A stretch of DNA of 64,000 nucleotides from Anadara kagoshimensis. Its lineage: Eukaryota; Mollusca; Bivalvia; Arcoida; Arcidae. The position numbers and the translations under genes were made by a program. Under the pieces are notes generated by a model that had not been told where the DNA came from, searched no databases, and worked only from the letters and a program-made list of their open reading frames with translations. The stretch covers positions 9,612,085 to 9,676,084 of the forward strand of contig CM037863.1 of assembly GCA_021292105.1 (NCBI GenBank), read 5' to 3'. Positions 6,400 through 58,599 of the stretch are shown here, one piece after another (position 1 is the first letter of the stretch; every line of letters starts with the position of its first letter).

Positions 6400-6734
6400 A
6401 TTAACATGTCAGGTGTGCGTGTGTTTTTTGTCATTGTTTGCGTGTGTTTTTTAACATTTCAGGCGTGTGTGTGAGTATATGTGTATGTACATCACAATTC
6501 ATATATGATTACAACTTGCGTGTAAGTGTTTTTTATTTTATTTTTATTTTATTTTTTTAATTCATTATTTTATTTTTATTCATTGGTTTTTATTTAGCAT
6601 GGACATAACTATTATGTAAGTTCATTTCAAGATACAGGTGGGTGGATGGGGTACGTGCTTGTTTAACAATGAAAATGCATGAATTAAGCTGTAATATTAA
6701 ACTGTATTAATTTTAAATCTATTATATATTTCAG
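5410..6734. other. Region upstream of FAXC coding exon 1
   Basis: Holds a SINE-B 3' fragment (about 5669-5740, ending in CCATTACTCTGCTCCACTCC), a (GT)n microsatellite (6353-6397) and AT-rich sequence. The FAXC ATG directly follows a TTTCAG acceptor-like site at 6731-6734, so an untranslated first exon and promoter probably lie in or before this stretch. I could not place them. Confidence 0.45.
6353..6397. repeat. (GT)n microsatellite
   Basis: About 20 GT units, with further GTGTGT patches on both sides. Confidence 0.95.
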
Positions 6735-6874
6735 ATGTTGATGGCGGATTTGTTTTGGTGGAGTAGAATGGAATTCTTTACTCTCACCCTCGGGATTAAG
6801 TTTTTAGGAGGAGTCATTGCCACGGGAATTTTAGCGCTGATTTTGAGATTTAAAAGAGAAAAAAGTGATGAAAC
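6735..6874 (+). CDS. FAXC: FAXC coding exon 1 (membrane anchor)
   Basis: Encodes residues 1-46 plus two bases of codon 47. It includes the hydrophobic stretch FTLTLGIKFLGGVIATGILA and a basic stop-transfer-like RFKREK. The donor is AAAC|GTAAGT. Confidence 0.88.
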
Positions 6875-7579
6875 GTAAGTTTTAATCTCTCTCTCTCTCT
6901 CTCTCTCTCTCGTACTTGTAAACACCATAAAATTATAATGTGTTTATGTAGCGTGTTCTTTAATTCTAGTTTGTCCTCTAATGGTCAAAAGTGTAAATAC
7001 AATGTAATTTTCACCATTTATATAGAACAATTATAACAGATTGGGAGACGAGTTTATAGTTCAGTGTGGATAATTACTTTACAGTTGAACTTTGTAACTC
7101 ATACATATCCTAGCCATAATACATGTGTGTAGGCATATCCAATGATAATTCAAAATAATTGTAACGAATTGATTGCTTTGTCACTAAAATTAAAATTAAA
7201 TAATTCCCAAATCAACCGAGTTTATTGTAGGACATTTGGTTGTAAAAAATCTAAATTGTTAGTGTGTTTAAATCGCCATCTCCTTTTGTTAACTTCGACA
7301 AAAACTGTTTGAGTGGTTAAAAGCTTGCGCTTACGAATGACACGAGTGTAACCGTCTATAGGTTAGGATTCCGACTGAGGCAAATCCCATTGTGAGAAAG
7401 TTTGTCAATTCGCTTTCTCAGAGAACTCCCGTTTGACCCACTACACCTGAACCGTCTCGATATAGATCGGAGAATATCGACTGTGACTATTACTATTAGA
7501 CACTATTACTAAGCTCAACTCAAATTTGGAACATGATTACCACTACCAATATGTGCATTGTACGTGCGCGCGCATGTGT

Positions 7580-23500: not shown

Positions 23501-24062
23501 TCACTCCAATAAACTTATATTGCGTATAGCAAGCAATAATGTCTTCAGCGATTCCTGTTGATACACTGAATATATTGTGTGATTTCGGTGCGATTTTTGG
23601 TACCGATCATAGAAGTTCTGTGAAGGAGAATAAAATCGCTTAAACTGCATGTTTATATGGTCTACAAATGGTCGGACTTTTCCTATCGGGTCATAGAACG
23701 GACTGTTCCTATTAGGTATGTTGTTGTTGTTTACTACATGAAAAAACTTCAAAATATTTTGAAACCGATTCCGACTCATTACTTCACTAAACCAGGACGT
23801 TCTCTCGCTTCGGTATTTTGACGACCAATATTCCTGTATCGATGGTTTCTGTATTACCCCCATGTTGATAATAACTGCTATGAAAGCCTTGAACTCTGTA
23901 AAAGATACTGGCCTCCAGGCTTTTACACGTGAATGGGGAGCAAGCCTTCCAATATTCCTTCCAATAAAAATGAAGGAACTATGGTACTATTTTGAATAAT
24001 GATCAAGGTAATTTTGAATTAAATACGTTTACAATTGATTTCCATTATTTCCATTACTATTT

Positions 24063-27650: not shown

Positions 27651-27710
27651 TAAGGCAAGACAGAAACTCTATGTATGGTAAACATAAAAAATATTTTTGT
27701 TTTGTAGATC

Positions 27711-28112
27711 ATGTCGATAGAAGAGGCATACCACAAAGTTGAAAAATTGAAAAAACCTACAACATCATATTTATTGTCTAAAAGCACCAGACGATTTAAT
27801 AATACTATGTTGCCAATTATTGTACTACTGTATTCCTTGATTTGTGAAATCAGTACCTTGACAAATGGTCAGTGTGTGCCAGGGGGGAACGTGGAATATG
27901 GTGTATCTATTGTAGAAAACACCATTATAACATTAAATCGTATAGGTTTTCAACAATGCATAAAGGAATGCAAGAGAACACAAGATTGTCTGTCAGTGGA
28001 TTTTAACAGGGATGCGTATATATGTGATCTTAAATCAAAATTATTGAAGGATACAAATACAATAACTAAACCAAATGCCTGGAACTGGCATATAGATATG
28101 GATAATGTTCCG
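27711..28112 (+). CDS. PAN/CCP gene exon 1 (signal peptide and PAN domain)
   Basis: Acceptor TTTTGTAG|ATCATG and donor CCG|GTAAGT. It encodes residues 1-134. The first 32 residues are charged and the hydrophobic signal starts at Met33, which argues for the inner start or for a signal anchor. Cysteines follow an apple-like pattern (CIKECKRTQDCLSVDF, YICDL). Confidence 0.87.
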
Positions 28113-31100
28113 GTAAGTAAATACAGTGAAACCTGTCTATAAAGGCCACTCAAGGAAACCAGTAAAAGTGGCCTTAATGAGTAAGTGGCCTTTATATACA
28201 GGTTCAAATAATTTGATTAAAGAATAATTGGGATACAATTTTACTGGCCTTTATAATCAGGTGGTCCTTATATAGAGGTGACCTATAAGGCAGGTTGGAC
28301 TTTAATTAAATATGTTTTTCTTTTCTATGCAGTAATATTCCTGCTTCTCCTTTTACTGCTTAGGGTGTGTTTGTTGTTAAAGTAAAACTCTAATGTAAAG
28401 TTTGTTCCCGCTACGCAAACTTTGTTCAACGAAGCAAGTTGCTTAAATAAATAAATTGTTGACAGAGGGATAATTATTGCAATCCCTGGCTTATCAAGGT
28501 TCCCATAATGTGTTTTGGCCGCCATCACAATATTGATGATGCCTCTGTATCCACTATTCCCATGGATATATTTGACGTTCCATAGTCCCATGTTCCTTTC
28601 ATTCTCAAATTTGATTAAATGCGTGGCGGGTGTAGCTAGCGAAACAGAGGTGCTTAGCCTTCCGGAGCACCCGGGATTTGCAAACTTCAAATATTTACTT
28701 TGCTTTAGGGTGGTAATTTTTACTTAGATTGAAATGTTTGTTTTTAATATGTTAAGCATCAAAGGAACCTGTACACTTACGATTATCAGTTTGATCGGAT
28801 ATATTTTGCGGACTTAGAAGAATTATTATTCACACTTAGCCATTTTCCGTAAATATGTGTACAAGTTGGTTCAGATTATTATTTAGTTATGTACGATGTA
28901 TGACCCAATTTTGTATTTTGTCTGAAATTATTCAACGATGTTAAGCGTTAAAAGATCCCATCCGTCACCTGAGCTTAATTTTCCCATCAACATTGGGGAT
29001 GTGGACATTAGTTTTCTTCAGAGACAGTTCAAGTTGGTTTTATATTCATTAACACAAAAAGACATGTAATTGGATAGTTTTTTCAACCCTTTTTAACAAA
29101 GAAAAAAAGTTTCACATTTTAGCTTTCAATACTACTGGTGAGGACATGTATTACGAAACGACCGTTTTTTGTTGTAAAATTAACACTGGTATAATATGCC
29201 ATTTATATAATTTCAGATAGTGTCTGATTGTGACGGATTTGGGTGCAGCATGTATGACAAGTGTATAAAAGATAGCTGTATACCTTCTGGTAAGTGTAAT
29301 AATAATCCAATTTAGAAAATTTCTACACAACACATAAAATATGGCAATATCAATACCTGGATTATTACTTTAGATTTAGATAATTGGGTTATATTAAAAC
29401 ACTAAGGTACACTGACCCTCATGCAAAGTATTTCCCAAGCTAAATTTGATAACAAATATTTTGGTCCTGTTTTGGTTATCTTTTTAACATCTTGAAAAAA
29501 TTGGTTTCTAAATTTTCGTCCAAACACTGCTGATGAGGAATTGTATTCCGAAACGGTCGTCTAGTGCTGTAGAATTAAAACTGGTTAATGTGTCATTTAC
29601 GGGTCACACAATACTAGAGAAAATGTAGTCAGATCAAGAAATGTTAGATAAGGACTGTTCATATAGATGACACTGCTGGGACATTTTGTCATATAAGTTT
29701 TAGAATACTGTAACCCGCTTTATAACGATGCATACTTATTTTCGCATAACGGGTCTAATTTGTTGGTATTAATGATTAATACTTCAATGATTGAAGTGAA
29801 GTACTGATCGGTGAACTGGTAAATTAAAATCTGAAAATAAGACTTGTCACATTGTAAGTATCACATACAGTGATCGTAATTAACCTGTATTCTAAAGTGT
29901 TCCCTAATTTATCCATTAACCCGCTTGTCGGTGGTCAGTCTACTGGGCCATTAATAGCTAATTACTTCTCATACGCAAGTATATTGATGGACGCCATACC
30001 ATTTTTTCTACACCTATGTCATTTAAAACATGTTATAAATACTATAATTTAAACAAATATTTTAAAATTATTATTTTAAAACTGACTATAGAACAATTAA
30101 TGTACGTCCATACCCATTCAGAGTCACAGAAGCGCTATATAGTACTGATTTTTTGTTGTTGTAATTTTAGCGACAGTTTCATTTTAGCGCTAACACTCTT
30201 TCTCCAATTGCGCTATAACAAAACTGCCGATAAAACACACGGTTAACCGTATTTCATTCAGAAAATTTAAATGTGTAATATCACACATCCCTTGGTGGAG
30301 CTAAATGATAATTGCTCAAGTACCAATCCATGTCCAATCTACAATCCCAAAGGCAAAGTCAAATCTTTGAAGAGGACATATAAGATATGTCAAGTCTTCA
30401 CAGGAGCAGGACATTATATTCTAGAGAAAGAAATTCCGTAGTCACCGGCGTCATCAGCAAATCGGGATTAAACACATGAACTTCTGCCAGAGACCGGAGG
30501 TTTTGGAATGGTTGACACTATCGGTTAATCTAGCTATACTAGCGACGTGTGGTATCAAAACTAAGAGCGAGGGTGCCATTTAACTAAAATGTCATAAAAG
30601 CCATGAAACTTTTTGAGTGCCCTATTAAGTATTTGCTTGCAATATCCAGAACTCAAGTACTTATTTTTGAGCAGCTTGCTTGTATTTCAATACTTATAAT
30701 AGGTTGCTTTGTCTTTTCCAGGATGTCCACCATCTTCGACAATAAAATATAGCGACGCTTCACCAACAGACGGACTATCTTGTGGAGGAGAGAGGACATT
30801 TAAATGTTTGGAAGGATACACAGGGAGGGGGAATCCGATTGCTAACAGTTTAACATTTTCCAATAATGATTTTAAATGTTGTATGTTCTATTTATGATAG
30901 GGGTCACTGTGTTGTGTGTAATACAATACCTGTTGAATTTATAACGTAACAGAAAAATCATTTTTATTAATTCAGGTTTTACTGTAACAAATATTCTATT
31001 TTTTAAACCGTGATAGTAGAGTAATATAACATTTTACAACGCTATATTTACAATTCCATTATTACAACTTCGATAACACTTTAATTGCCATTATGCGTTA

Positions 31101-34100
31101 TCAGTCGATAGCAACAATAGAAAGTAGTTCCGGCTTTCTTGACAATCTGTGTGTCAACGGGTTTCTAGATCCCCATTTTGATGTTGCGCGTAACGTTGAA
31201 AACGGAAAAACCCAAAGATATTCACACTACGCCCAATAACTTCAGTCAGGCATACTTACAAATTCTACGTTTTCAAATTGCACGTTCATTATTAACATGA
31301 GAATGTAAACTAATTTATAATTATTCAATAAAAATCATAAGAAGGAAAAGTCTGTACTATTTTTTTACGTTGACAGTACCATCGACATTTCCATTCGCCA
31401 CTAACACAGTGGAGTGACATCGAAATGTACATTGTATATGTTTGTTAAAGTTAGCATGGGAAATATTGAAAATATAAAAAATAAAGACAATTGTATTGTT
31501 AGTTATCGTGGTATAACTAACAATACAATTGTCTTTATTTCTTAATAACCCAACTTGAAAGTGTCTTATATATGTATCTTGGTTCCATTCGCCTTTGACG
31601 GCTCTTTTAAGACCAGATAAAAATAGGTCTTTCGTTTTTGAAGACGACGTTTTAGAATTCTATAATCCATTGGAGGCAAAATACCACGGTTCACATATAG
31701 AACATTTGGTACAGTGAAATCTGAATTATTAAAGATGCTTTTGTAAATCAAAAGGTTTAGGTTTTAAAATGAACATGTTTCGCATGATAGGTGTGTTTTT
31801 ATTTTATTTCAACAACTCAATTTGGGGAACCTAAATGTTTACTAAATCCTTTCTTCCGGCAATATGTTTTCGGTATTTTTAACAAATATTTACAAAACAT
31901 TATTTTAACAATCTTCGGGTACAGTAGATTTGTCATTTGATATTCGTGTTTTTTATTCTTCATACAGATAGGTAGATGACATTCTACATAATTATATCAC
32001 TTAATAATATTGAATTTCGAGAATATTTGAATATCACAATTTAATACAATATAGTATAACTTTTTCCTCTAGGGGAACTTTATACAATAAAGCAAGCTGC
32101 TAGCAAAGAAATTCAGGGAGATCGCAAGTCTAGGATTATCAAGGCCATAAAAGTTTTATGGTCGTCATCACAATACGTCGATATTTATGATACCTCAATT
32201 TCATAAATTCGCTTGTATAAACCTTATTCCGTGTTCCTTGAGGTCTCAATTTTAACTTGCACGTCAAGGGATATCTGGCTGGATAGAAACTGCTTACTAG
32301 TATCCTTCTGTAGGTCCCCCTTTATTTCCCTGCTGGAAGTTCACCTGCTAACTTAAATTCCCAGGTTCAAAAGTTTTAGTGTTGTAATTTGGATATTGAT
32401 ATGTATATTTTAACTTTAAGTGTTGCAAATACGTTGTCATTAATAACATTGATCAAAAACAAAAATACTTATCAATATCCGAATCATAATCCAGAAGCAA
32501 ATTAAAAACTTTGGAACTGACAAGTCAGGTTACAGACGTTAACTTCCACCAGGGAAGTGAGACCGGGTGCTCTGGAAGGATACGCACCTCCTGTTTAGCT
32601 ACCTACACCTGTCGCGGGTGTAATCAAAATTGTGTGAAAGGACATTGGAACTATGGGACGTAAAATATATTCAAGGCTAAAATATATACCCTGGACACAG
32701 AGACATTATTTAATTGATATTTTACGTTTCGTTATCATAGATAAAACAGATGGAGAATGGATATTATTGGCAAGGTTCATGGCTGGTATTGGTTCGCCTG
32801 TGCTTAGCACTTGGCTGTCAGCGGGAACTTCCAGCGAGTCTGATGCAAGTGTTGAAGAAGGATGTAGTTCAATGAACTTTACAGCTAATTGTACAAAACA
32901 TTACAGAACGAGTCTTGTTGATGAATGGGAGACGTTAAATATTACTGAGGTAATTCTTACTAGGTCTGTTTTAATTTTGCAGCACTTAACGACCGTTTCG
33001 GAATAACATTCCTCATAGTAGAGCTATGGTAGTTCAAGTTGTTTTAAAAATGTTGAAATGAAAAAAAAATAGAAGGACAAAAAATAATTTACCAAATCCA
33101 CCGAAGACAATATTTTAAACAATAACGATGAGGAATTGTATTCCGAAACGGCCGTCTAGTGCTGTAAAATCAAAACTGGTATAATATGTAATTTAAACCC
33201 CTGAGCCGATATCTCTGCTGGTGGCTGGTGCCCCGATGATGTCATAAACTCAGTAGGCAATAATTTCGTATTATTGTCAGAAAAATACTATAATTGTCTA
33301 AATTTCCTGCAAGTTTAAATTTGAAATTTCTCAAAAACTAAGGTATACTCCCTCATGCAAAGTATTTCCTTAGCTTAATTTGGTAAAGTATATTTTGGTC
33401 CTTTGAGTAGCTTTTCAACATCTTCAAAATAATTTTGGTTTCATAATTTTGGTCCAAGCACTACTAATGAGGAATTGTATTCCGAATCGGCCGTCTAGTG
33501 CTGTAAAATCAAAACTGGTATAATTTAAATGTAATGATGTACAAATATTTGCCGTGCTCCGATGGTTTGCGTGCTTTGTGGCCCCCAGGGCCAAAGCGGC
33601 CGGAGTTTCACTCCTGACAGGTTCAACTATGCCGTGCGGGATTGTCAGGTAGAGGTCAGACGAAAGTGTGCACCATGGCCCTCCAGGTTAGGGGTTGGGC
33701 AAAAAGCTAACTACCTACTGCTGTTAAAAAAATCTAGTTACAGAAACAACAGACGTCAATTAGATGTCCAAGCCTTGTGAGCCTTCTTGTACTAAGAGAA
33801 TTGCGGTTAAGGTAATGTTAGTTCTTGAGGAATTTTAAAATTTACGAAGCAGGTAATTTTGATTAACAATGTTTATCTGACAATACAATGTATTGCCTTT
33901 TTGTTTGCGCCTGTGTACATGACGTCATTTTAGCTGTTTCGAGGACAGTGTTTATCTGGCAATACAATGTATTGCCTTTTTGTTTGCGCCTGTGTACATG
34001 ACGTCATTTTAGCTGTTCCGAGGACAGTGTTTATCTGGCAATACAATGTATTGCATCTGGCAATACAATGTATTGCCTTTTTGTTTGCGCATGTGTACAT

Positions 34101-37100
34101 GACGTCATTTAAGCTGTTCCGAGGAGAGTGTTTATCTGGCAATACAATGTATTGCCTTTTTGTTTGCGCCTGTGTACATGACGTCATTTAAGCTGTTCCG
34201 AGGACAGTGTTTATCTGGCAATACAATGTATTGCCTTTTTGTTTGCGCCTGTGTACATGACGTCATTTTAGCTGTTCCGAGGACAGTGTTTATCTGGCAA
34301 TACAATGTATTGCCTTCTTGTTTGCGCCTGTGTACATGACGTCATTTTAGCTGTTCCGAGGACAGTGTTTATCTGGCAATACAATGTATTGCCTTTTTGT
34401 TTGCGCCTGTGTACATGACGTCATTTAAGCTGTTCCGAGGACAGTGTTTATCTGGCAATACAATGTATTGCCTTTTTGTTTGCGCCTGTGTACATGACGT
34501 CATTTTAGCTGTTCCGAGGACAGTGTTTATCTGGCAATACAATGTATTGCCTTCTTGTTTGCGCCTGTGTACATGACGTCATTTTAGCTGTTCCGAGGAC
34601 AGTGTTTATCTGGCAATACAATGTATTGCCTTTTTGTTTGCGCCTGTGTACATGACGTCATTTTAGCTGTTCCGAGGACAGTGTTTATCTGGCAATACAA
34701 TGTATTGCCTTTTTGTTTGCGCCTGTGTACATGACGTCATTTTAGCTGTTCCGAGGACTAGTAATACATGTCGTAAGAAGCAGCACTTTTAAATTTCTTT
34801 CAGGACTGAAAAGCCAAAATATATAAAATGGCTAAAATGCAAAATGTGAATATATCCATTGAGCTGGCCTTAAATAACATTTTATTTTTTCATTTTCCAG
34901 CACTAAACGGCCATTTCGGAATACAATTCATCATTAGTAGTGCTTGGACGAAAATTGTGAAACCAATTTTTTTTCATGGGGGTTAAAAATATACAAAAGA
35001 CTAAAGTATACAAAATAATTTTTCTAAGGAAATGCTGTGCATGATAGAGTACACCTAACCTTTTTGAGCATTTTCAGATTTTAACTAGCAGCCCGTCTAT
35101 AAAGTCTTATCTCTTTTGGCTGTTTCTATCAATTATCTTTCCTCGTTGCGGTGATTGTTGATAAGTTTATTTTTTCAGTTAAAAGCTCTTTCTTCTACTC
35201 GTCATCACTGGCATTAAAATTGATTGATTGATTGATTGATTCATTGATTGATTGATTATTGATTGATTGATTCATTCATTCATTCATTCATTCATTGATA
35301 CAATGGGTTTAACACCCCAGTCAAAAATATTTCATTTATATCGAGATTCCATCAGCTTTATTTGAAGTGGAAGAAATTGTGACCGATGCAGTGTGCTAAT
35401 GACAGTTGACAGGGAAAATGCTTTAACGTGTCACGCCTGTTTTACACAGTACATCGGTTTAAAGATCTCTTCTGACGTACCCGTTATTTTCATTCTCAAA
35501 TGCCGAGTGCTAGCCACTATCTACTTTCAAGTCTTGGTCAGACATAGACTGGGGTTTGCATCTTCAATCTTTCACATACGGAACGAGCACTTCACTATTG
35601 ATCTACATAGTGGTTTATGGGGCATTAAAAGCCGGATAGTTAAGACGAACCATATATCATCACCACATATCTAAATATATATATATATATATATATATCG
35701 TTATTGCAAACCTAGGCTTGCCAGGGGCCTCAAAATGTTTTATGTCCGTCACCACAGGTCGTGTCACTTTTGAATTGGCTTTTTGTAAGACTGTGAATCA
35801 AAAACAAATATAACAATCAATGTCCAAACCATAATTCCAAAGCAAAGCTTACAGCTGAAAGCTCTAGTTTAGCTAGTTTTACCCGTCATGTGTGTAATCA
35901 AAATTGGAATTAAAATGAATAGAAAACTACGAGACGCCAAACATATCCTAGACTATCCTGGTCACAGAGACGCCAAACATATCCTAGACTATCCTGGTCA
36001 CAGAGACATCAAACTTATGAATAATACTGTCATGATGGTCATAAAACTTTTTAAGAGCCTTGATAAGCCTAGTCTTGCAATATGCCTGGGTCAACAATTA
36101 ATAATATATAATCCACATTGGGAATGAAAGGAATATTAAACAATATGACTTCAAATATATCCAGACTAATTTTGGATTGAGGCACAATGATACCAAAATT
36201 GACAAAAGCAAAATCATATATTATTGCGTTACAACATATATCAATTTTTCGCAAGTTACTATAGCACTGCTAAGTTTATTTAATGTTTCAGGTAAAAATT
36301 GAATTATTTGAAGTTGGTGTTATGGTAGCAAATATTCATTTTAAAGGCAACAACACGGACAAAGAATCGTGGTTCAGCATCGATAAATACTTATCATCGG
36401 GTTGGACAGATATAAATACAGGCCAAACATTTCTATTTTTCGATATATATGGTGAGATCGGGTGAGTACTTTATACAATGTGTTTGGTTTGAACTTAAAT
36501 GTACTCTGTTTATGACCACGTGGTATACTAGTACCTTAACATTTGTGTGGAATATTTAATTTCAATGGAAATACGTTTTCTGGTATAATCAACATTATTT
36601 CGTCAATTTTGTGACAACGATGTTTTCGAGGACGCCATGCACAAATGTGTAATGATGGTGATTACGTCGTACATCAACGAACTTTAACAGCGTATATTTT
36701 TAAAATTTAAATCCATAAGTAATGAAGATTTCACAATCGGTTTCTGGTTTAAAACATCAAGCTCTGTTTCAAAACCATGCAGCTGGATACGAAGGGTTTG
36801 ATCAGAGGTGTTGGAAACTTACCAATTACTAGTAATAATACATCTATTTATGCGATAAATAAGCTATGGTAGAGATTGTTCTATCAAAGGAACTTTATAC
36901 AAAGGAGCAATTTGAAACTGTATGACAAATGTGATGACTTCAATTTTTCTATTGTCAATTTTTTGTCTCTATGCATCAATATACCTGCTTCCTCCGCTTG
37001 TTGTGTATTAATTAATACGCTATGGTAGAGCTTGTTCCCACTACAGGAACTTTATACAACGGAGCAAGCTGCTTACAAATAAATTTTCACCCAGAGATAT

Positions 37101-41660: not shown

Positions 41661-43095
41661 AGCAAAGTCTACTCCAGAATACTGATACAAAGGGTTCAAG
41701 ATGGAGTATAAAGACAACTACGTGAAGAACAAGCTGAATTTAGAAGAGGGAGAAGTACAATAGAACAACTATTTACACTAAGTAACATTATAGAACAATG
41801 TATTAAATGAAACCCAACCCTGTTTGTTAATTATGTTGATTTTGAGAAGGCATTTCACTCCGCCAATAGAGAGAGTCTCTGGTCCATCATGAAGGCATAT
41901 GGCATCCCAGACAAGCTATTCAGAATGGTCTAACTTCTCTATGAAACATTTCAATGTGCAGTCCTAGAAGATGGTGAAGAAACTAGCTGGTTTCGGATTA
42001 CAAAAGGGGTGAAACAAGGATGTACAATGTCTGGGTTCCTATTCTTATTGATAATAGACTTTGTAATGAAAAGAACCGCAGAAGGAAAATACAACAGGAA
42101 TAAGATGGAACTTTACAACAAAACTTGAAGATCTAGACTTTGCAGATGAACTTGCTCTATTTTCATTGAAATTTCAGGACATTCAACAAAAGATACAACA
42201 ACTACATGAGAATGCAAGTCGGGTTGGACTCAAGATAAATATACTAATGAAAACAAAAGTGATGAGACTCAATACTGATGTAAAAGTGCCAGTTAAGATC
42301 GATGGACAAGACCTTGAAGATGTAGAAACATTTACATATCTTGGAGGGGTGGTAACAACTAGAGGAGGTACTGATGAAGACATTTCCAACCAACTGGGAA
42401 AGGCAAAATCACAATTTAGAAGACTAAGAATAATCTGTAGCTCAAACTTTTCCATCCAAACAAAACTTAAACTATTTAACAGCTTGGTCATGTCGGTACT
42501 TTTGTATGGAAGCGAGACATGGAAAACTACTGAGAGAGATAAGGAAACGATAGACGCTTTCCAGAATAGATGCCTTAAAAGATTCCTGAGAATGAGATGG
42601 CCTGACAGAATTACAAATGAATACCTTCACAACAAAACAAAAACAGAAAGAGCAAGTGACATAATAAGAGTAAGGAAGTAGGGGTGGATTGGCCATGTTC
42701 TCAGACTGGACAGCAGCAGAATTTGTACCACCGATATTACATGGCACCCAGAAGGAAAGTAGTCAATCAAATACAACAGGGCGAAGAACAACAGAGAAAG
42801 AGAGAACACAACTGGGATAGAAGATCTGGGCGTCAGCAAGGGCAGCTGCCAAAGACAGAGCATCGTGGAAAATGTGTATTGGGGCCTTATGTGTCAGTCG
42901 GCACGAAGAGGATAGGTGACGTGAGGTGAGGTTTAGATACAGGAAAAACTTCAATATTTCAATTGTATGAATAAAATTTGCTATGATGAAAATAATGTCA
43001 ACCTATGGCAAATATAAATTTGTAATGTTATTTATGGAGGGCAGTGTATTTTGATATTCTTCACTTACTTCATTCTATTTAATCGTACCTGGAAA

Positions 43096-54800: not shown

Positions 54801-54952
54801 GGGTTTAATAACCTATATAGTTGTATATTAGTATATGTATATTTTTTGTACAATAAATCAGAGTATTATCTGTATTTATTTCCTGTTTTATAAAGTGGTC
54901 ATTTCATATCAATCATTGTCCTTTTAATAAAAATATAATATACCCTAAATAC

Positions 54953-55085
54953 TAGACTTGCACAAGTCCCTATATTAAATTATTAATTTTAGTATCTTGC
55001 CCCTTTAAAACTATTACAGAGATCAACTGACAAAAGTCAATTTACTATCAAAACCCAGGAATATAGGGACTTGTCAAGTCTGCAT
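54953..55085 (+). repeat. Left 133-bp TIR, itself a foldback
   Basis: The TIR starts AGACTTGCACAAGTCCCTAT (after an initial T) and near its inner end has AATATAGGGACTTGTCAAGTCT in inverse orientation, so each TIR has its own 22-bp internal inverted repeat. Confidence 0.95.
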
Positions 55086-55504
55086 GAAGCTCTTGCTAAC
55101 AATTATATTTGATTGACATTAGAGGTCAAAAAATCAAATGATAACACAGCACAGTCAGATTTAATTACAATACAATGTGGTCCAGCACACGCTTGGTGTA
55201 TATATTACAAACACTCACTAACACAATTTTTATTTTAAAACTACATTTTTTATGACCTCGTCAACATCAAAAAAGTTTTTTAAGTTTATAAATTATACTC
55301 CAAGAACAAAACAAAGAAGAAAACTTTTCATGGGTCTGCTAAAACTAATTCCTGTTTATTGATTGAAAAACATCTCCAAATTGATATACATCCGGATTTA
55401 CATACCTGTCATATACCATTTTTTAAAATTTAATCATAAAATACATTCAAAAAATGGTATCATTTTTTAATGTATTATATGGTTAAATTAAAAAAAATCG
55501 ATAT

Positions 55505-55790
55505 ATATCATACCGATACAGTATGCAGGAAATGTATAAGGGATATCCAAAAGGTAGAAAGTATTGTTTCACACTTAAAAATATCTTATCAAACTTAACT
55601 ACTGAGACATTACAAGTGTCACATGGAAAAGAATATACAACTTATAAAAGGCAAATCAATGAAGAAAAAAAGACATCAAAATGAAAAGTTTTATTTCCAA
55701 AGGAGGACGACGACAAAGAAAATGACAAAAGTCAAGAGGATCTATGTAGTTTTGTTCCACTTGATATAGAAGAGAATACAGAGTATACAA
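55505..55790 (+). pseudogene. First coding block of the DUF6589-like gene
   Basis: One frame gives DTVCRKCIRDIQKVESIVSH with a C-x2-C pair, then a stop. A second frame resumes with an acidic stretch (KEDDDKENDKSQEDLCSF) and ends at a good donor ACAA|GTAAGT. At least one frameshift or stop separates them. The CxxC followed by a helix resembles the N-terminal zinc-binding region of this protein family. Confidence 0.55.
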
Positions 55791-56298
55791 GTAAGTTTTT
55801 TAAAATTTTATATCTGTAAAAAGTTGTAAAGAATTTCACCTTCATGACTAACCAAATGTGGCCCGTATAAGACAAGACCAACGGAAATAAATGTCTCAAA
55901 TCTAGTAATAAGTATCAATATATGCATGTACTAGTGAACATATTTCTGTATTTCAAAATCATAATAAATTGCATTGTGTCCATTATTATCTCAAATTGAA
56001 TATTGAAAAACAACTGACTTTCCTTGTGATGCAAATAATAATAGTACAGTAAAACCTCGAATCATCACCACCATTTGTTTAGTCAAATTTTGGCATTATA
56101 AAGGGGTTAAGCGATAAATTGGGATAGGCGGATAAAGAAAAAACATAAAGAAAATGGATTTTTGGACTTCAAACCTTTTCTATTTACAGAAGTTTTAGTT
56201 TAAAACAAATCACTTAACCACACCACATTTATTTGACCTCTTTTTGTTGTAGATTGAAGTTTCAAATGGATCGCAGAAAACTGTGTATTTTCTCAGAC

Positions 56299-56823
56299 AG
56301 TTATATGTACCTATAATGTGTCTCTGAACAATCACCAAAAATCACCAAAAACTGTGGCTTGCACTTCAAGAAATACCCGAACTAAAACACCTTTCTTACA
56401 ACATGAAATAAAAACATTGTCATCAAAAGAAACAAATTCTATTCTCAGAAAAACGGATAAAAATATTCTGAAATCAATCACTGTAGATCAGATTCTGTCA
56501 GAATGGATGGAAAAGGCACCAACATTTTTTGAGATATTAGAAGCATGTACTATCAACCCTTCACAAAGCCGATATAAGTACAAAAAGGATGAAGCTTTGT
56601 TACCAGGTATTATGTCGACAGGTTGCAAACTTTTATTAATTTACAACCAAGACATGAATCCACTCCAGCATTTAAACAGCGTCATTTTAATAAAGGGTGG
56701 GTGTAAAAAGTCTGCATTTACAAGGCTTAATGCAATATACGATTGTCTTAGTTATAAGGCATCCCTCAACATATCTGAAAAGTTTAGCGAGGACTGGAAC
56801 CTTGAACTGAAGTTTTGGGGTCA
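56299..56823 (+). pseudogene. Middle exon of the DUF6589-like gene
   Basis: Open for about 170 codons between an acceptor-like TATTTTCTCAG and the donor GGTCA|GTAAGT. The core reads DQILSEWMEKAPTFFEILEA, then LLPGIMSTGCKLLLIYNQDM, LQHLNSVILIKGGCKKSAFT and RLNAIYDCLSYKASLN. From memory, metazoan proteins with a downstream DUF6589 domain show the same layout (CP/AP-FF-xLxAC, then QxMNxLQ, then GxxxKxxxxRLxxL). Confidence 0.6.
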
Positions 56824-56911
56824 GTAAGTTTCGCAAGATACCTTCATTGAGGACAGATTGCAGAGTCAGATTAAGGAAACACAGGAATCAATTGCAATTG
56901 ACACACTAAGG

Positions 56912-57684
56912 CATAGGCGTAGGATGGTTTTTAATATTGGGGGGCCAAACCGAAGCTATGTCTATGTCGTGCCGCAGGTACGACCTCTTGCCAGGCACGA
57001 GGCGGGAAGAGTATGAGAGGGGTGCCAAACCCCTCGCATAGGTGGGGGTCCGGGGGGCCTCCCATGGAAAATTTTCAAAACTAAGTCTTGTCTTGACGCA
57101 TTTTCAATGTATTGTGCATCGTTTTTGCTGGGGGTAAAATACTGTGATATCAAGGCAAGGAAATAACTGTATGGCACAAGTTCCATAATCACCCCTTGCA
57201 ATGGAAATGGATATCAGAGGCTGATCCAGAATTTTAGAAAGGGGGCGTATAATGTGAGAGCCGAAGGCTCGAACCTTCTAGGGGGGTTCGGGGGCATGCT
57301 CCCCCGGAAAATTTTGAAAATGTGGCGCAAAAACCTGCATTCTGGTCCAATCTGAGCTGAACAATATGTATTATTAGAGACATAAAGGGGGGGGGGGGAG
57401 TATGTCCCCCCGCTGAATCCGCAACTGGATATGGGGTACACCGGAAAATTTTGACGCCCTTTACAAGTATAATGATGAAATTGATAACTGATTGGTTACC
57501 AGATGGACATTTCCTGTTAAAGCTCTTGGGTTTTTTTTTTTTTTTTTAGCACTTACATTATAAACATAAACTATGATACAAAATTTCACACAATATATTG
57601 CGGGGGCCTGCCCCCCTCCCCTTCTCTGACATTGGGGGGGGGGGCCTGGCCCCCGCTGCCCCCCCCCCTGCTCATACGCCTATG
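56912..57684. mobile_element. 773-bp G/C-run-rich insertion with TAAGG duplication
   Basis: Ends CATAGGCGTAGGA and TCATACGCCTATG are inverted. TAAGG flanks it at 56907-56911 and 57685-57689. Inside are two related blocks with GGGGGTCCGGGGGGCCTCCC and GGGGGCATGCTCCCCCGGAA followed by AAATTTTGAAAA, plus poly-G, poly-C and poly-T runs. It interrupts the DUF6589-like gene and so is younger than the gene's arrival. Confidence 0.82.
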
Positions 57685-58118
57685 TAAGGGGTAATCCATA
57701 GAATAGTCAATACAGTTGATCTAATCATTGAATTATCTCAACTGGAAACAGATTTAGAACAACACAGAGCAGCTATGCATCCTGGATTTTATTTTGTAGG
57801 GACAATGTTGATATGCGAACTAAAGTTCGACACATACAAAAAATACATCTTTATTTTGTAAATATGCCTCTATGGCCTTTTTCTTGTTTTCTCTAATCTC
57901 TTTATAAGATAATTGTTTTAAACCATTTGTAAAATCCATGCTGTATGTACTATGATGTTAAATAAAACAATGAGTTATACTGACCCAGTATGTGTGATTT
58001 AATTATATTTTGCTAGGGACATTTAAGTTCAGTCTGTAAGCTGTATCTGGAGAAGTAATTAAAGCTGTCAACAGTGTTAAATGAAAATTAATGACCGACC
58101 ATATACTGGTCGGTGGAA
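57685..58118 (+). pseudogene. Last coding block of the DUF6589-like gene
   Basis: VNTVDLIIELSQLETDLEQH, then RAAMHPGFYFVG, then after a one-base slip DNVDMRTKVRHIQKIHLYFV. The GDNVDxxxxxRH phrase marks the start of the conserved C-terminal domain in my recollection. Only about 25 residues of that domain remain before stops. AATAAA occurs near 57962. Confidence 0.55.
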
Positions 58119-58251
58119 ATGCAGACTTGACAAGTCCCTATATTCCTGGGTTTTGATAGTAAATTGACTTTTGTCAGTTGATCTCTGTAATAGTTTTAAA
58201 GGGGCAAGATACTAAAATTAATAATTTAATATAGGGACTTGTGCAAGTCTA
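58119..58251 (-). repeat. Right 133-bp TIR
   Basis: Exact reverse complement of 54953-55085; outer end GGGACTTGTGCAAGTCTA. Confidence 0.95.
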
Positions 58252-58599
58252 CCTAAATACATATAGACCTATCTCAGTCAACAAATTGATCACCACGGTT
58301 CTCTGCCTGTGGACATATTTGAGTGATTTTATTTTGATTATATAGACTGTGACAGGAAATAGGTGAGTAGTAATTGTGGTTGACAGTGGAACCTTTATGA
58401 CCTGTTAATAGTTCAGAGATCACCAAATGAAAGTAAAATTACTAACCTGTCCATTCACACTCTATCTCAGATCTTGTTATGAATGGCAGGCTTCTTCTAC
58501 CAAGTATTGAATCAACAAACTGAAGTTTATGTTGTTTATGCTGTGTACAAAGAAAGGGACTCTGCATATTATCTTTAGGGACAAATAATCACACTAATT

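Follow-up and report, generated by a model that had tools for sequence, protein, structure and literature searches.

What moves a transposon whose ends are perfect while no transposase can be recognized between them? This question is raised by an element in a 64,000-nucleotide stretch of the genome of the bivalve Anadara kagoshimensis (assembly GCA_021292105.1, contig CM037863.1, positions 9,612,085 to 9,676,084; hereafter the window). As the original prediction from the letters alone had stated, the two terminal inverted repeats (TIRs) are reverse complements over 133 of 133 bases and the same nine bases, CCTAAATAC, stand directly outside both of them as a target site duplication (TSD). The inner end of each arm repeats its outer 23 bp in inverted form (95.7% identical; 54954-54976 and 55060-55081 in the left arm), and BLASTN of the element against the 64-kb window returned no second copy. 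We consider it very probable that this copy, non-autonomous and internally deleted, derives from a cut-and-paste transposon of the AcademH type, the long copies of which encode a DUF6589 protein and a convergent RecQ-like helicase of superfamily 2 (SF2). The TIRs, the TSDs, the gene content and the shared deletion on which this explanation builds were observed directly.

The original prediction had proposed that the TIR be searched for in the host assembly, and such a search (1.115 Gb, 36 contigs) uncovers a large TIR family. All genome counts are lower bounds: with 40 of 394 first-look candidates scored, there are at least 45 TIR matches. Twenty TIR-bearing stretches were compared, of which L015 and L016 cover one region. 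Of the 20 TIR-bounded intervals counted (the window and 19 loci; L022, with no mate in its stretch, was left out), 19 have exact 9-bp TSDs beyond their outermost arms; the sole exception is L025, whose left TIR is truncated. L015 and L016 (C8:22096950-22110800) hold two copies of 6.33 kb each that face opposite ways and whose 9-bp duplications are reverse complements of each other; a single insertion was apparently duplicated there in inverted orientation. Where arms are doubled at one or both ends (L010, L017 and L029), the 9-bp duplication is found only outside the outer arms.

What do longer members of this family encode? A full-length copy of 7,048 bp at C9:24856677-24863724 (hereafter C9) has identical arms, an exact 9-bp TSD (GGGGTTACC) and, on its plus strand, a gene of several exons, the later of which match DUF6589. 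The fourth exon covers positions 156-410 of the Pfam family at 87.2 bits against a curated cut-off of 27 (E = 1.2e-24), and the third covers positions 63-149 at 25.4 bits, slightly under the cut-off. The second exon, of up to 372 aa, contains HPGFYFVGDNVDM and has no Pfam match; the first coding exon carries a CxxC and resembles zf-AD (4.7e-5, below the Pfam cut-off). Convergent to this gene, the minus strand bears two open helicase frames, with matches to DEAD (2.5e-19) and Helicase_C (3.3e-15) and to the NCBIfam model recQ_fam (3.1e-25 and 5.1e-27, both below the model's own cut-off as single exons). By eye, GT-AG sites are present at most of the expected exon borders. Outside the two genes no frame exceeds 98 aa, and the five such frames scanned gave no meaningful match; in the frames scanned of this full-length relative no recognized transposase takes the place of the DUF6589 gene, which lies between the same TIRs. 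A second copy, C15, has both TIRs, one with a deletion, and the TSD CGAGTGTCA. Over the 1,143 bases of exon 4, C15 and a further copy, C11, differ from C9 by no base substitution, with one and four gap openings, respectively. C9 exon 4 has no relatives in viral contigs.

Compared with C9, the window element is, judged by its alignment, an internal-deletion derivative of a C9-type element with two added insertions (Table 1). It aligns to C9 element positions 1-498, 494-1928, 1935-2079 and 6623-7048 with 87-94% identity, and the 4.5 kb missing from it held what remains of the DUF6589 gene as well as most of the helicase gene; the start of the latter is kept. The matches of C9 to DUF6589 are confined to the deleted exons; no window frame matches DUF6589 in Pfam, nor does the C9 counterpart of the 189-aa exon. 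The original prediction of a DUF6589-like gene stands as to family membership, to which the C9 exons and the TIR-flanked copies attest and not a match of the window frames themselves; profile searches assigned the product of 56299-56823 to no other family.

Table 1. Features of the window element (window positions).
Feature	Position	Strand	Remarks
Left TSD, 9 bp, CCTAAATAC	54944..54952		
Left TIR, 133 bp	54953..55085	+	
First coding exon remnant of the DUF6589-family gene, with CxxC	55222..55790	+	Approximate boundaries; C9 counterpart zf-AD-like
Palindromic insertion, ~103 bp	55406..55508		Not in C9
Second coding exon remnant, damaged in frame and by a stop, on the N-terminal side of the DUF6589 Pfam domain	56253..56911	+	
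Nested 773-bp insertion, ends CATAGGCGTA/TACGCCTATG	56912..57684		TAAGG at 56907-56911 and 57685-57689
Remainder of second exon, including HPGFYFVG/DNVDM (candidate first catalytic D), with frame change	57685..57835	+	
Junction of the internal deletion, between positions 2079 and 6623 of the C9 element	57835..57838		
5' stub of RecQ-like helicase gene ('MDFTNGLKQLSYKEIREN...')	about 57838..57939	-	Matches C9 helicase frame residues 2-45
Right TIR, 133 bp, identical to left	58119..58251	-	
Right TSD, 9 bp	58252..58260		

One coding remnant of the element, a 189-aa open frame at 56258-56827, is longer than chance would give: when the interior was simulated 1000 times as a first-order Markov chain, 2 runs reached this length. 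The second exon to which it belongs is interrupted by the 773-bp insertion, a stop and a frame change; the insertion is flanked by the 5-bp repeat TAAGG, and the corresponding C9 site is empty with a single TAAGG. An insertion of 0.7-0.8 kb near C9 position 1935 is common to 8 of 19 paired copies, the window copy included, and must therefore be older than the spread of its carriers. Runs of G and C occur within the window's 773 bp. Two details of the original prediction have to be revised: 'GDNVDM', taken for a separate exon, in C9 shares one open frame with the 189-aa stretch, and the split gene is not the only coding remnant, since the minus-strand helicase start had been overlooked. For the 189-aa frame, no relatives were found in viral contigs, prokaryote genomes or plasmids, and a PDB search returned ribosomal proteins only, at E 0.5 or worse. 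A degenerate HPG..VGDN.D pattern had no match in viral contigs, and the one viral-contig match to a 19-base TIR pattern (L001) was dismissed as chance, lying in phage-like DNA devoid of TIR structure.

The deletion itself is a family trait. Across the 19 paired copies compared in this respect (L022 and L025 were left out), the middle part is missing from every one; 13 share the window junction within 3 bases, five have slightly larger deletions (2024 joined to 6623 in four, 2024 joined to 6646 in one), and L020, at 243 bp, is a near-complete deletion. Consistently, 34 of the 55 genome matches to helicase exon 1, the window among them, end at residue 45-48; three of these stubs have as neighbours longer matches from a more distant helicase family. 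By their sequences, these copies apparently represent one defective lineage that was amplified in trans, mobilisation in trans being implied because the lineage has spread although its genes are broken. The shared junction and the broken genes thus lend support to the original suggestion of a deletion derivative that depends on proteins supplied from elsewhere.

C9 is one of 27 matches to PF20231 (DUF6589) in the host genome; 14 control genomes gave none. Among seven close copies of exon 4 (pieces 84-100% identical), both TIRs are present in two (C9 and C15) and one TIR in three (C8:33647, C8:35486 and C11). A helicase-like convergent end was discerned by eye in the 1.5-kb flanks of 9 of the 27 loci (L030-L034, L036, L039, L041 and L052), and a scan of eight of these confirmed Helicase_C in five: L031 (C9), L032 (C15), L033, L036 and L052 (C11), with L033 and L036 near-copies of each other. 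In some sister families a PHD finger lies within DUF6589 (above the cut-off in L033 and L036, just under it in L040), and a separately scanned adjacent frame of L045 matches PHD just below the cut-off; C9 has a C2H2-like stretch at this place. In L038 and L080, DUF6589 (46.1 bits) shares a 1,438-aa open frame with a GDSL-lipase-like part (35.6 bits) and a C-terminal part with a weakly CXC-like end. An XPG-like nuclease after DUF6589 in L038, suspected by eye from a motif, was dropped, being unconfirmed by Pfam or phmmer.

How might these proteins promote transposition? The DUF6589 protein is likely the transposase, because a helicase alone does not account for insertions that are bounded by TIRs and duplicate a constant 9 bp. 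It is most likely an enzyme of the DDE type that has a zinc-finger-like domain at its N terminus and another stretch of zinc-finger-like character between candidate catalytic residues two and three. The rows of alignment A3 are fragments, some of them almost identical to one another, and intron is included in some of those that read through; in this alignment the D of the 'DN' motif is kept in five of six covering rows (L035 has N), the D of 'D-L' in seven of seven and the E of '[MI]E' in five of five. We infer catalysis by the DUF6589 protein, a role for the helicase, the binding sites and mobilisation in trans, and envision the following scenario. The transposase would presumably bind the CAAGTCCCTATATT boxes that recur within the 133-bp arms, which are putative sites, and insert the element via 9-bp staggered cuts, with the helicase assisting transposition. 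Loss of 4.5 kb across both genes would then have left a lineage that keeps its ends and may be amplified by the proteins of better copies.

Several points weigh against this account. In C9 the first coding exon is divided between two overlapping frames (446-925 and 808-1011), so that C9 may itself be damaged there; exon 4 of C11 has its four gap openings, and helicase exon 1 of C15 and of C11 contains two stops each. Even the better copies, C9, C15 and C11, are at most candidates for a working element. The DDE interpretation is built on acidic motifs and elimination, and a PDB profile search returned PHD-finger proteins only. Moreover, two of the seven close DUF6589 copies (C17 and C8:33726) are without a TIR in the limited flanks fetched, and the helicase-looking frames of L030, L039 and L041 gave no Pfam match.

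To which known group might such a transposon belong? A helicase and 9-bp TSDs are reported traits of AcademH, a helicase-encoding branch of the Academ superfamily (Kojima, 2020, as cited in other papers), and we therefore file the element as AcademH-like on these two features. According to a passage of PMC10045372, AcademH generates TSDs of 9 or 10 bp and AcademX of 3 or 4 bp, in relation to helicase and nuclease; the exact 9 bp in 19 of 20 intervals, joined by C9 and C15, agree with the former, as do the DEAD and Helicase_C matches of the C9 frames with an SF2 helicase. DEAD and Helicase_C are likewise listed in a passage of a fungal survey among domains from AcademH, KolobokH or Helitron (PMC10799480). 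AcademX, presumably of the same superfamily, differs in its reported 3 or 4 bp TSDs and in a nuclease instead of a helicase; the C-terminal part of the L038 frame, XPG-like by eye, would be a point of likeness to it. A passage of the iMITEdb paper (2016), which predates the AcademH paper, differs in giving a 3 bp TSD for Academ in general. What sets the present element apart is its 133-bp arms with internal inverted repeats, and its DUF6589 protein is a candidate homologue of the AcademH transposase.

The original prediction of an undescribed element family does not hold at the level of the superfamily if this placement is right. One might nevertheless conceive of a DUF6589 transposase unrelated to Academ, with the likeness in helicase and 9-bp TSD arising by convergence. 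Such a reading draws on the fact that the likeness to AcademH lies in the helicase and the TSD length, and that the literature searched contained no paper naming DUF6589 (the PF20231 matches were judged unrelated by title, and papers beyond that search are not covered by this statement). It is nonetheless quite improbable, given that two independent AcademH traits, the SF2 helicase and the 9-bp TSD, coincide, and that Academ is reported, in a passage of PMC10294476, as amplified in bivalves. We give still less credence to a Mutator-like element (MULE) that captured the DUF6589 and helicase genes as passengers in the manner of a Pack-MULE. The 9-bp TSD falls within the MULE range of 8-11 bp, and the long arms recall MULE TIRs of commonly hundreds of bp (both as given in a passage of PMC6446971). 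However, Pfam scans that covered 11 out of 28 C9 frames with 60 or more aa, all frames above 98 aa included, detected no MULE transposase domain, and DUF6589 with a convergent Helicase_C recurs at two loci that are more distant, L033 and L036; the MULE reading is accordingly disfavoured. Rehavkus is also similar, being listed with a 9-bp TSD, TIRs of 26-400 bp and a PHD finger.

Compatible with an AcademH-type transposon, but in itself unlikely, is a composite-like origin in which each 133-bp arm is a small element that has inverted ends of its own, and the genes travel as the cargo of two such arms. KolobokP offers a parallel in its long terminal repeats containing shorter inverted ends, although by the passages describing it its repeats are LTDRs (direct, by name), its TSDs measure 3-4 or 4-5 bp and it has a His-Me finger nuclease, whereas the arms here are inverted and the TSDs 9 bp. 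The 23-bp outer and inner inverted repeat of each arm fits such an origin, as do the doubled arms of some copies and a 231-bp two-arm copy with its own 9-bp duplication nested in L029. Yet two-arm copies are explicable as plain deletion derivatives, a 229-bp pair in L022 is without an exact 9-bp TSD, and no arm standing alone between 9-bp duplications was demonstrated, no genome-wide search for solo arms having been made.

When did the window copy insert? The original prediction had called it recently moved and noted its identical arms. The arms are indeed identical, but this is weak evidence of recency: of 44 family arms aligned over at least 110 bases, 38 reach 97% identity or more with the window arm, whereas whole copies diverge further. 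The closest sister of the window copy, L010, is 97.6% identical to it, and the other 16 paired copies larger than 243 bp (L020 left out) are 86.6-96.5% identical overall. The variant 44C>T is found in both arms of all seven carriers among 17 copies examined. Sharing of arm variants gave P=0.00015 in a substitution-only permutation (17 copies) and 0 of 20,000 when one inverted duplicate was dropped (16 copies); a first permutation that counted indels gave P=0.059. These tests left out the doubled-arm L010, L017 and L029 and the 243-bp L020, and the substitution-only version also left out gap-rich columns. Some variants occur in one arm only. Variants shared by both arms suggest homogenisation between arms or a founder effect, and identical arms are a poor date for insertion because they are conserved, apparently homogenised, across the whole family. 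Substitution patterns in the exons, all suggestive only, give dN/dS of 0.27-0.57 for C9 exon 2 against 18 derivatives and 1.11 against C17; for C9 exon 4, 0.42-0.46 against three copies and 0.87 against C17. For the window copy against L011 the ratio is 0.99 (15 nonsynonymous, 4 synonymous), for L011 against L014 it is 0.37 (7 and 5), and the window copy differs from L010 by 4 nonsynonymous and 0 synonymous changes.

Elsewhere in the window, a transposase remnant lies at 23501-23986 on the minus strand (PF13843, 1.2e-24), which we take to be of piggyBac type. An open frame with a PAN domain (2.9e-6) occupies 27708-28142 (plus strand), a 79-bp tandem array containing the palindrome GGCAATACAATGTATTGCC extends over 33866-34758, and a reverse-transcriptase-like remnant at 42070-42681 (plus strand) matches DUF6451 and RVT_1 below the cut-off.

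From a broader perspective, DUF6589, a Pfam family of unknown function, gains a probable role as a transposase. One may ask further whether DUF6589 supplies the catalytic core throughout the Academ superfamily, in helicase and nuclease lineages alike, a generalization that we regard as possible and rather doubtful. The proposed role is now open to testing, since a full-length copy is at hand, its boundaries are exact and candidate residues for catalysis can be named. A helicase-bearing cut-and-paste transposon, together with a deletion lineage that it has apparently mobilised, would likewise make the role of the helicase and the cause of the 9-bp duplications accessible to experiment.

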